Shown here: in pieces, positions 3,312 to 5,040 of the stretch
How positions within the stretch are numbered: position 1 is the first letter of the stretch
Layout of the letters: the number at the start of each line of letters is the position of its first letter
DNA from: Oceaniferula flava
GTDB taxonomy: Bacteria; Verrucomicrobiota; Verrucomicrobiia; Verrucomicrobiales; Akkermansiaceae
Assembly (NCBI RefSeq): GCF_016811075.1
Contig: NZ_JAFBGL010000002.1
Location: 1 to 64,000, forward strand
Length of the DNA: 64,000 nucleotides
Direction: 5' to 3'
Program-made: the position numbers and the translations under genes
Notes under the pieces: generated by a model
Database searches by the model: none
The model's input: the letters and a program-made list of their open reading frames with translations, nothing else
What the model was told of the DNA's origin: nothing

Positions 3312-3363
3312 GGTAGGGAGGATTGCGTGCCCACACGGTAGGGCGGATTGGCCTCAATCCGCC
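3312..3363 (-). repeat. Dispersed intergenic repeat, inverted and internally deleted copies
   Basis: The 21 bases at 3312-3332 are the exact reverse complement of the right end of the copy at 3567-3626 (3605-3625). Directly after it, 3337-3363 joins an inverted right end (CGGTAGGGCGGATTG) to an inverted left end (GCCTCAATCCGC), as if the middle of a unit were lost. The 3301-3819 gap holds these, the full copy at 3567 and a possible tRNA promoter; I see no protein gene in it. Confidence 0.5.
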
Positions 3364-3566
3364 GCTCCTCGCCGTCCGCCGCCGCCCTGATTCAGGATTC
3401 AGTGATTTTTTTGACCGCAACCGGAGCGCAGCGGAGATAGCCCCTAGGCAAATATTGCGAATTGGGCGAATTTTGTCTCTTGGAATTTGAGACTTAGCAC
3501 TTAATGCTTCGCGCCCCCAGCTCTGGAGGAGCGATAGAAAGCGATCGCAAAGAGTGAGTTTCCCAA

Positions 3567-3626
3567 CGGAGGATTGGGGCCCCTTCTTCGCCATAGCTTC
3601 GGCAGGGCACGCAATCCTCCCTACCG
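3567..3626 (+). repeat. Dispersed palindromic intergenic repeat, copy 3
   Basis: Best-preserved palindrome of the family: GGAGGATTG at the left pairs with CAATCCTCC at the right (9 of 9), with GGGCCCCTTCTTCG and GGCAGGGCACG inside. It shares the centre and right end with copies 1 and 2 about 3 kb away. Confidence 0.6.
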
Positions 3627-3819: not shown

Positions 3820-3905
3820 GGGTAGGTGGCCGAGTGGTTAAAGGCGGCAGACTGTAAATCTGCTCTCGTATGAGTACGCTGGTTCGAATCCAGCCCTGCC
3901 CACCA
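3820..3905 (+). tRNA. tRNA-Tyr (anticodon GTA)
   Basis: A full class II tRNA cloverleaf. The acceptor GGGTAGG pairs with CCTGCCC at 3895-3901 (one G-T pair). The anticodon stem GCAGA/TCTGC holds the loop CTGTAAA, giving GTA. The extra arm is long, as expected for bacterial tyrosine tRNA, and the T arm is GCTGG-TTCGAAT-CCAGC. Discriminator A at 3902 and an encoded CCA at 3903-3905 complete it. Its last 19 bases are repeated twice downstream at 184-base intervals. Confidence 0.97.
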
Positions 3906-3913
3906 TTTTTATA

Positions 3914-3946
3914 AAGACCCGGAGCGAATGCTTCGGGTCTTTTTTT
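3914..3946 (+). terminator. Rho-independent terminator after tRNA-Tyr
   Basis: AAGACCCG and CGGGTCTT form a stem around GAGCGAATGCTT, followed by a run of T. An almost identical structure recurs at 4282-4315. Confidence 0.85.
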
Positions 3947-4096
3947 GTGGGCAGAGCTGGATGAGAACCTTGGTTCGAGCGCACGACGAAGTAGCGTGTG
4001 TCACGCTTTCAGGGTGTTTCAATGCGGAGGAGCATTGGAGATGATTGCACAGATGGAGAGGAACGGAATCAATCCAGCCCTGCCCACCATTTTACT

Positions 4097-4126
4097 CACC
4101 CCAGTTCTTTGACTAGAGCTGGGGTG
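4097..4126 (+). terminator. Hairpin after the second tRNA-Tyr tail
   Basis: A 12-base stem (CACCCCAGTTCT against AGAGCTGGGGTG, one G-T pair) with loop TTGACT. It occupies the position of the terminators after tails 1 and 3 but has unrelated sequence and only a weak T-rich tail (AAATGTTTT). It may be a processing hairpin, not a terminator. Confidence 0.5.
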
Positions 4127-4281
4127 AAATGTTTTGGAGCTGGATGAGAACGTAGTTCGAGCGCACGACGAAGTGGCGTGTGTCACGCTTTTAGGGGGGG
4201 CTTGTTTCCTGAGGAGGAAACGAGGATATGTGCACAGCCTGAGCGGGCGAGGGCAATCCAGCCCTGCCCACCATTTTCCTA

Positions 4282-4315
4282 AAAGACCCGGAGCGAATGC
4301 TTCGGGTCTTTTTTT
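4282..4315 (+). terminator. Terminator copy after the third tRNA-Tyr tail
   Basis: Same stem as at 3914-3946 (AAGACCCG ... CGGGTCTT) followed by seven T. It probably ends any transcript that reads through the repeat array. Confidence 0.8.
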
Positions 4316-4393
4316 GTAGCGAGGCGTTTGCACGCTTCGGAGGGAGAGGGTGATGGGGGTGTGAGAGGACGAAGGGTGCAAACCCTTTGCTAC
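4316..4393. repeat. Long imperfect inverted repeat downstream of the tRNA array
   Basis: GTAGCGAGGCGTTTGCACGC at 4316-4335 is complementary, with a few mismatches, to the segment at 4370-4393 (GGGTGCAAACCCTTTGCTAC is its right part). The arms enclose a purine-rich spacer. Function unknown; it abuts the array and ends about 45 bases before the DUF1287 gene. Confidence 0.45.
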
Positions 4394-4437
4394 GGGTGGG
4401 TGAAATGTTGATTGTGTTTGTGGCGTATGAATCACTT

Positions 4438-5040
4438 ATGCGTGGATTGATTGCTTGGGTATTGTGTTGTTGCCTGCTGGTTACTTCCGGTTGTGGGCAG
4501 GAGGAGTCGGTCGTGTCGGCTCCATCGGGGGTGAGTGACATTGTGAATGCGGCGCGGAGCCAGATTGGCAAGACCACGAGCTATGACCCGGCCTACGTCG
4601 GTTTGGCTTATCCCATGGGCGACATCGATATCAGCAAAGGAGTTTGCACCGATGTGGTGATCCGAGCGCTGCGCAAGGCACGCAAGATCGACCTGCAGCA
4701 GCGGGTGCACGAAGATATGCGGGCGCATTTTTCCAAGTATCCGAAGATTTGGGGGCTGAAGCGGACGGACAAAAACATCGACCACCGACGGGTGCCGAAT
4801 TTGCAAACCTACTTCAAGCGCCAGGGCTGGTCGTTGCCGGTGAGCAAGGACAAGGCCGACTACTTACCGGGCGATCTGGTGACCTGCACGGTAGCGGGTC
4901 GCTTGCCACATATCATGATTGTTAGTGACGTCAGCGATGCAGACGGCGTGCCAATGGTGATCCATAACATCGGTGGAGGCGCGCGTGAGGAGGCTCGGCT
5001 GTTCGAGTTTCCTCTGACTGGGCATTATCGGGTGAACTAG
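4438..5040 (+). CDS. DUF1287-family lipoprotein
   Basis: About 200 residues. The N-terminus MRGLIAWVLCCCLLVTSGC is a lipoprotein signal ending in a slightly atypical lipobox (TSGC), so the protein is probably anchored in the envelope. The rest carries DUF1287 features: an early ARSQIGKT helix, YDPAYVGLAYPMGDI, GVCTDVVIRALRKA with the likely catalytic Cys, a conserved DKNIDHRRVPNLQTYF block, PGDLVTCTV and a late HIMIV and IHNIGGG. DUF1287 is thought to be a papain/NlpC-like cysteine hydrolase family, but its substrate is unproven. The start at 4438 is chosen over the in-frame ATG at 4405 because the signal peptide begins there. Neighbours on both sides are functionally unrelated. Confidence 0.85.
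   Translation: MRGLIAWVLCCCLLVTSGCGQEESVVSAPSGVSDIVNAARSQIGKTTSYDPAYVGLAYPMGDIDISKGVCTDVVIRALRKARKIDLQQRVHEDMRAHFSKYPKIWGLKRTDKNIDHRRVPNLQTYFKRQGWSLPVSKDKADYLPGDLVTCTVAGRLPHIMIVSDVSDADGVPMVIHNIGGGAREEARLFEFPLTGHYRVN

Follow-up and report, generated by a model that had tools for sequence, protein, structure and literature searches.

The RNA rtT was reportedly described by Bosl and Kersten in 1991, and to our knowledge its role is still unsettled. Integrative elements that target tRNA genes provide a further comparison, as the attachment sites of their tyrosine recombinases copy the tRNA 3' end from the T-loop onwards. In the accessible parts of the respective reports a tandem GA motif in RtT is noted by CaCoFold (PMC7657543), some rtT-like elements are tied to BIMEs (PMC2965389) and rttR is listed among the REP-containing sRNAs (PMC12306157). 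The available excerpts of a study of Actinobacillus pleuropneumoniae give northern signals for the RtT sRNAs Arrc20 and Arrc21, which lie beside tRNA-Asn and tRNA-Lys (PMC4986893); going by these excerpts, non-tyrosine hosts and expression are thus already known in Gammaproteobacteria. The Escherichia coli sRNAs rrA, rrB and rrF are placed, in the portions at hand of another report, between the dual terminators of rrn operons, where they are made by read-through (PMC8144298). In the open-licence literature we found no account of comparable units in Verrucomicrobiota or of the T-stem rule and T-loop insertions set out below, and recognised none of RtT outside Gammaproteobacteria.

The window analysed here, a stretch of 64,000 nucleotides from Oceaniferula flava (Akkermansiaceae, Verrucomicrobiota), carries a tRNA-Tyr gene followed by a two-unit array (Table 1). 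The sequence AATCCAGCCCTGCCCACCATTTT, consisting of the last 19 bases of tRNA-Tyr and TTTT, stands at 3887, 4071 and 4255 with identical letters and steps of 184 and 184. The cores repeat with 95% identity over 42 bases (3973-4014 versus 4155-4196), and the variable hairpin reads CAATGC-GGAGGA-GCATTG in unit 1 versus GTTTCC-TGAGGA-GGAAAC in unit 2. Two of the three hairpins behind the tails are listed by the terminator scan (3913-3942 and 4096-4127); the third, 4282-4317, is absent from that list and is recognised by its sequence identity with the first, and the middle one differs in sequence from both. A first-pass annotation made from the letters alone had claimed a tRNA tail recurring at exact 184-base spacing, a hairpin behind each tail, and a conserved core with a hairpin whose pairing is preserved while its sequence changes between units, all of which is confirmed. 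The general design of a unit, read off the sequence, is an anti-tail, GATGAGAAC-NNN-GTTCGA, a hairpin core, AATCC and a tail copy. In RNA letters the window units thus carry GUUCGA; GUUC is named as the TruB motif in PMC11623569. As in tRNA-targeting integrative elements the tail duplicates the tRNA 3' end starting in the T-loop; unlike such elements, the 184 bp units show no sense-strand coding frame of at least 80 aa in the ORF list, and so no evident integrase of their own, the two ORFs of that size which overlap them both being antisense (4019-4435 and 4191-4577), and their core is structured and covarying. In layout alone the window recalls rrA, rrB and rrF as presented in the portions at hand, namely a small RNA between two terminators of a stable-RNA operon, although those RNAs belong to rRNA operons (PMC8144298). 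Upstream of tRNA-Tyr there is also a perfect 21-base inverted repeat, GGTAGGGAGGATTGCGTGCCC, at 3312-3332 and 3605-3625, and a second, direct repeat at 3477 and 3628.

Table 1. Features of the tRNA-Tyr locus and its array, in coordinates of the window
Feature	Position	Strand	Basis
tRNA-Tyr (GTA), CCA encoded	3820..3905	+	tRNA call on sequence
Tail 1: tRNA 3' end from T-loop base 59 to CCA, plus TTTT	3887..3909	+	repeat search
Terminator-like hairpin 1 with T run (terminator scan: 3913-3942)	3913..3948	+	36 letters same as 4282-4317
Unit 1 anti-tail, one mismatch to the tail complement; rebuilt T-stem and acceptor 3' strand (predicted)	3947..3962	+	sequence and two predicted folds
Unit 1 GA-GAACC-TT-GGTTC-GA: P2 hairpin between tandem GA letters; 3' end is T-loop-like GTTCGA	3963..3978	+	
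Unit 1 core	3979..4070	+	alignment, model match
Unit 1 core parts	P4 3993-4007; P5 4020-4037 (loop GGAGGA 4026-4031); GCACAG 4047-4052; P6 about 4052-4070	+	
Tail 2, closes unit 1	4071..4093	+	repeat search
Hairpin 2, weak T run	4096..4127	+	terminator scan
Unit 2 anti-tail GAGCTGGAT	4137..4145	+	sequence; inside R1 match 4134-4267
Unit 2 GA-GAAC-GTA-GTTC-GA (P2 and tandem GA letters)	4146..4160	+	sequence
Unit 2 core: P4 4176-4188, P5 4201-4224, P6 about 4237-4254	4161..4254	+	alignment, model match
Tail 3, closes unit 2	4255..4277	+	repeat search
Hairpin 3 at array end, same 36 letters as hairpin 1	4282..4317	+	absent from terminator scan list

The likeness to E. coli tyrT/rtT pointed out in the first-pass annotation is real. 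As with RtT at E. coli tyrV/rttR, the units directly follow a same-strand tRNA, come in tandem, end in a copy of the tRNA 3' end to which a 5' arm is paired, and have GATGAGAA with tandem GA letters, GGTTCGA and an AATCC tail; the letters GA-GAA...GTTC-GA, which may form the tandem GA motif reported for RtT, are invariant in the genus alignment A1 described below. Unlike RtT, they have a longer core with P4, P5 (often with a GGAGGA loop) and P6, a terminator-like hairpin separating each tail from the unit that follows, numerous tRNA hosts and no conserved frame from ATG, and their score is under the Rfam cut-off. The Rfam RtT model (RF00391) spans all of unit 1, positions 1-130 of 130, with 23.7 bits against a cut-off of 45 bits; unit 2 is not listed among its matches in the window, and BLAST of unit 1 against E. 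coli genomes gave no match. With the same model a Chthoniobacterales unit (L135) scores 45.8 bits, above the cut-off, Terrimicrobiaceae units score 33.6-37.9 bits, and a unit on contig C4 of the own genome scores 14.9 bits at E 7.3, which means nothing by itself. Applied with stricter filters and E up to 0.01 to 288 genomes of the phylum it yielded 13 matches in 8 genomes, with the gathering score reached in none of the 288; all 13 follow a same-strand tRNA, two as second units and 11 directly, the latter starting from 7 bases inside the tRNA end to 54 bases past it. Model R1, built from the 23 genus units of A1 without E. coli sequence, recovered a single E. coli RtT unit out of three (rttR, 21.4 bits, rough E 1e-4 in 80 kb). 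Its only matches across the entire Ewingella genome are two RtT units behind tRNA-Lys (E 2.2e-4 and 0.019), so that known RtT units are detected in part by an independently trained model (1/3 in E. coli, 2/3 in Ewingella). Its match to unit 2 of the window (4134-4267, 118.8 bits) is to a training sequence. The tpr frame is annotated at the E. coli locus and was not treated as defining for RtT; in our units it has no counterpart, as the first stop after ATGAGAA lies 3 to 180 codons away in the 50 units compared, at a distance of 3 codons in five of them, and a conserved small protein from this start was rejected on these stop positions.

The 5' arm/tail stem, the same-strand downstream position and the tandem units with tRNA 3' ends are all present, but the window copy fails the Rfam score, and we therefore call the units RtT-like and do not file them as RtT members; they point to an RtT-like RNA family wider than tyrT. 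With Arrc20 and Arrc21, as portrayed in the available excerpts, they share the placement of RtT-type units beside non-tyrosine tRNAs; those RNAs are gammaproteobacterial, lie upstream of tRNA genes and were detected by northern blot, whereas the present units are known from sequence (PMC4986893). The window also has low-scoring matches to further Rfam families (SdsR, Leu_leader, ncr1241 and others), which were set aside as below cut-offs and mostly on terminator hairpins. Matches to the proteobacterial sRNA sX4 in three loci (L117, L123 and L133), also sub-cut-off, overlap tRNA-Ser genes, so that tRNA-Ser sequence may be part of the sX4 family.

A search of the own genome with the 425-base array gave a full-length match at this locus only, and among the matches listed none elsewhere spans the whole tail. 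Further copies of the core lie there behind tRNA-Gly-GCC, as two units of which the second is truncated, behind tRNA-Arg-TCT and, by eye, after an apparent tRNA 3' fragment on contig C4, which may be the attR of an island that separated the tRNA from its units; the open frame adjoining this C4 unit (L004, G000:C4, about 1780 onwards) resembles, again by eye, the start of a phage-type integrase. The pattern GATGAGAAC-N(1-25)-GTTYGAG is present in 17 of 58 genomes searched, the own genome included, with 2 matches in total for the reversed-pattern control; short-gap first units start mostly 19-70 bases past a same-strand tRNA, and some long-gap matches have no tRNA nearby. Across 84,980 named species genomes GGATGAGAACN{2,5}GTTCGAGCG gave 64 matches in 58 stretches. 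Records classed by their titles as Verrucomicrobiota account for 38 of these, with a same-strand tRNA at most 500 bases upstream in 33, and four of the remaining five sit at most 150 bases from the start of the available stretch. Two of the 26 matches in other records are tRNA-linked, to tRNA-Cys in a Gemmatimonadetes MAG and to tRNA-Lys in Ewingella americana. Among the other 24, one at a contig end of a MAG labelled Eubacteriales (L093) looks by eye almost the same as a contig from Verrucomicrobiota (L140), which suggests misbinning.

R1 at E up to 0.1 has matches in 12 of the 14 genus genomes. Within 77 genus loci, a chosen set outside which genus matches scored 37 bits or weaker, it gave 107 matches, 106 of them unique (1 duplicate); 75 of the 106 have a same-strand tRNA at most 1 kb upstream, covering 16 isoacceptor types. 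Among the other 31, 15 start at most 200 bases from an end of the available sequence, several lie inside or beside tRNA copies, and some fit neither class (e.g. L087, L192 and L213). In the model search of other Verrucomicrobiota advised at the outset, R1 gave 11 matches in 9 further genomes of the phylum; 7 lie 30-225 bases past a same-strand tRNA, 1 is doubtful and 3 have no tRNA called. R1 also finds divergent Arg and Asn units in other families. Hosts outside the genus are Lys, Cys, Asn, Pro, Ser and Arg tRNAs, and motif-to-motif spacings in related arrays are 137 (L037), 138 (L133), 156, 182, 187, 191, 239, 247, 274 and 310. Two points that had seemed striking, the shared tyrosine and the near-equal period (184 versus 178), are thus incidental: the spread over isoacceptor types rules out tyrosine-specific regulation, and that range of spacings rules out equal period as a sign of kinship.

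The structure was assessed on A1, an alignment of 23 complete genus units out of 24 references prepared, L052 having been dropped for its lost tail and L064, L068, L070 and L037 left out during preparation. A1 has the helices P1 (anti-tail with tail), P2, P4, P5 and P6; 96.0% of its 683 cells are paired, both sides have changed in 16 of 30 pairs, and the covariation score is 0.440 against 0.132 for a shuffled control, which ignores relatedness, and at most 0.103 when slid. The P2 pairs are invariant and hence uninformative on covariation. Units were kept only with the inner stem, so that P1 pairing is partly selected for, and a core-helix-only test and an anti-tail test on pattern-found units were run to avoid this selection. 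In the former, the three core helices alone have 96.1% of 407 cells paired, both sides changed in 12 of 18 pairs and a score of 0.519 versus 0.158 shuffled and at most 0.144 slid, relatedness being uncorrected. The structure-preserving changes initially noticed between two units are thus borne out by covariation in 23 related ones, which contradicts the possibility, raised against a functional RNA, that relatives would show no structural covariation. At paired columns G-U exceeds A-C by 18:7 in A1, the smaller and cleaner test, and by 123:56 in A2, which was fitted to the model; the shuffled ratios are 1.27 and 1.26, and 0 of 500 shuffles reach the observed values. This excess favours selection on RNA of the tRNA sense. 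The predicted fold of unit 1 has P1 and P5 present (z -4.46), and RNAalifold, applied to 24 units drawn from E. coli, Ewingella and Verrucomicrobiota, yields only the anti-tail/tail helix, with compensatory change in 3 of 7 pairs. The unpaired motifs GATGAGAA, GTTCGAG and CAATCC are common to units across phyla. Unit structure and tRNA linkage are well supported. Most of the 23 A1 units have GGAGGA as their P5 loop, on a stem that varies freely, and this loop resembles a Shine-Dalgarno sequence; at E up to 0.01, CsrA (PF02599) was found in none of the 14 genus genomes versus 3 of 14 control genomes, and a CsrA sponge acting through these loops was rejected on this ground.

For the anti-tail test, 9 variable positions before GATGAG were compared with the unit's own tRNA. 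Among units found by the motif pattern, which is blind to the anti-tail, the own-tRNA match averages 6.06 of 9 versus 3.26 for shuffled tails (36 units, 7 more being left out for want of a usable tRNA; maximum 4.33 in 10,000), and among pattern-found loci outside the genus 5.45 versus 2.88 (11 loci; maximum 4.82), with 0 of 10000 shuffles reaching the observed value in both sets. R1-found units give 6.40 versus 3.40, with the own tRNA strictly best in 29 of 50, these being the units parsed among the 75 tRNA-linked ones of the genus after 25 without exact GATGAGAA were left out. Loci outside the genus with Rfam matches included give 5.28 versus 2.89 (25 loci of 28 tried; L072, L240 and L242 were not parsed and skipped). 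Pairing is strongest towards the T-stem, at bases 63-65 (0.84 in the genus and 0.91 elsewhere; shuffled 0.37 and 0.38), and weaker along the acceptor strand (0.65 and 0.43; shuffled 0.38 and 0.29). There are exceptions to the fit, such as L058 at 2/9. A tail copy of the own tRNA matching at least 14 of 16 bases lies near the unit end in 26 of the 50 parsed units, a level that foreign tails reach in 23 of 2248 comparisons. Given the own-tRNA fit, the position profile and the RNAalifold helix, there is a general tendency for anti-tail and tail copy to restore the T-stem of the tRNA behind which a unit lies, which puts the core at the position of the T-loop.

In four cases the core lies within a tRNA copy itself: L182 (Ser-TGA), L201 (Ser-CGA), L205 (read as Leu-TAA) and the Ewingella tRNA-Lys array. 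The insertion point in all four is in the T-loop, between TTCGA (TTCAA or TTTGA in two of them) and the 3' strand of the T-stem, and ARAGORN calls a tRNA in 4/4 with the core skipped versus 1/4 with the core present. The 5' flank and the 5' part of the tRNA are duplicated ahead of an intact gene at L182 (162/162 bases) and L201 (117/120 bases). The interrupted copy at L205 (192-309, minus strand, G007) has no intact Leu-TAA counterpart in a genome sequence that is 81% complete; it could be a remnant or could still function with the insertion in place. By eye, L196 (G013:C2:114900-116200, minus strand) has two tandem 5' parts of tRNA-Arg-CCT with upstream flank preceding an intact gene, each with a related core after the D-arm, that is at a point other than the T-loop. 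Two features appear to be new, the T-stem complementarity rule and the core inside T-loops of tRNA copies in Verrucomicrobiota and Ewingella.

From these sequence comparisons we lean towards reading the units as structured, RtT-like RNA modules borne on the 3' portion of the tRNA transcript, modules that would be reached by read-through, displayed on a T-arm and released by tRNA processing. This reading draws on the covariation, the G-U excess, the fit of anti-tails to their own tRNAs, the models that match across lineages, the cores in T-loops, the fold of unit 1 and the Actinobacillus northern signals. We infer transcription, processing and function as follows. RNA polymerase would pass the first terminator into the units. 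The anti-tail, otherwise able to unfold the tRNA, would pair with the next tail copy instead; we invoke this role of the tail copy because the predicted fold of an RNA of tRNA, terminator and anti-tail (-74.1 kcal/mol, z -6.74) pairs the anti-tail with the T-arm and acceptor 3' strand of the tRNA. The tRNA 3'-maturation enzymes would then cut at each tail, freeing the tRNA together with an RNA of about 180 nt from each unit, in which a tRNA-like T-arm and 3' end would form a handle and the hairpin core a payload. Units would multiply along a locus through tandem duplication, and the first gain at a new tRNA would probably occur when a core enters the T-loop of a duplicated tRNA gene. Several results count against the RNA-module reading: a terminator-like hairpin with a T run stands between tRNA-Tyr and unit 1; shuffled sequences fold about as well as unit 2 (z -1.15), and P1 is missing from the minimum-energy fold of that unit; 20 of the 50 parsed units have no good tail copy near their end, in a search limited to 30 bases from the unit end and able to count doubled-core units as tail-less; of the 12 genus genomes in which tRNA-Tyr was matched, 6 have a unit at this gene, including one truncated and one without its tail; L090, L097 and L130 have no Rfam RtT match at E up to 0.05; and R1 does not list the other two RtT units in the 80 kb of E. 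coli and misses the third Rfam-listed Ewingella RtT match and the Gemmatimonadota unit.

The main rival is mobile DNA. A selfish cassette, whose non-coding core targets tRNA T-loops after TTCGA and is mobilised in trans by a recombinase, with tails as attachment-site copies and hairpins as recognition structures in single-stranded DNA, would account for the identical insertion point in broken tRNA copies of two phyla, for core modules duplicated within units (by eye), for the patchy presence of units and for the possible integrase frame seen by eye next to one own-genome unit. It would also suit the nearest core outside the own array, which shares neither tRNA nor genome in 36 of 68 cases (same tRNA in 16, same genome in 16). 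Recent bursts are nevertheless not apparent, as mean core identity is 0.618 between different tRNAs of the same genome versus a background of 0.607, an excess reached by 111 of 2000 permutations; cores at the same tRNA in different genomes are more alike (0.650; 0 of 2000 permutations), which weakly suggests inheritance at the tRNA with slow or old exchange. Phage carriage was rejected, as none of 5 motif matches in viral contigs lies near a tRNA, and the G-U excess fits RNA better than DNA. We consider a cassette of this kind unlikely, if still deserving of attention.

The fold of the anti-tail onto the tRNA 3' half is also what a cis switch would predict. In such a switch the anti-tail acts as an anti-tRNA arm: in read-through RNA it opens the T-arm and acceptor stem except where a tail copy further downstream captures it, and the array tunes tRNA yield. 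However, the complementarity that is conserved lies mostly over the T-stem and declines along the acceptor strand, especially beyond the genus, and the covarying core is left unexplained, which makes such a switch improbable. Quasi-palindrome correction can produce matched arms, and the arrays look tandemly duplicated (same-array core identity 0.750), so that functionless palindromes made or kept perfect by DNA template switching and tandem duplication might be imagined; the unpaired motifs held in common across phyla, the G-U excess and the placement of all 13 RF00391 matches behind tRNAs render this very improbable. That simple attachment-site or recombination scars lie behind tRNA-Tyr, as the att-like shape of the tail copy might suggest, is scarcely credible in view of the covariation and of a core common to 16 isoacceptor types.

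Extending the RNA-module reading to the family at large, we tentatively propose, with more doubt than conviction, that RtT is a widespread bacterial RNA module of tRNA T-arms, its core occupying the T-loop of a broken copy (after TTCGA) or else a T-arm that is re-formed downstream of an intact tRNA, and the T-arm serving as an exchangeable handle that would recruit tRNA-maturation enzymes to a non-tRNA payload. The Verrucomicrobiota units offer many diverged copies at many tRNAs, and thereby expose a T-stem rule that the E. coli copies alone could not. Together with cores in real T-loops, this rule makes clear predictions on the enzymes handling the RNA and gives a testable design for an old RNA family; if the proposal is true, it describes an RNA that spreads by borrowing tRNA processing signals.

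Single arrays show further variations. At L179 (about 735-945) a unit seems to be interrupted near ATGAGAA by some 200 bp with short inverted ends, TACCA/TGGTA, which by eye resembles a small insertion element. In the tRNA-Tyr array L223 (G005) the distal tail copy has AATCCTTCCC instead of the T-stem version AATCCAGCCC and matches the tRNA-Tyr of sister species; old tails may thus keep ancestral tRNA sequence.
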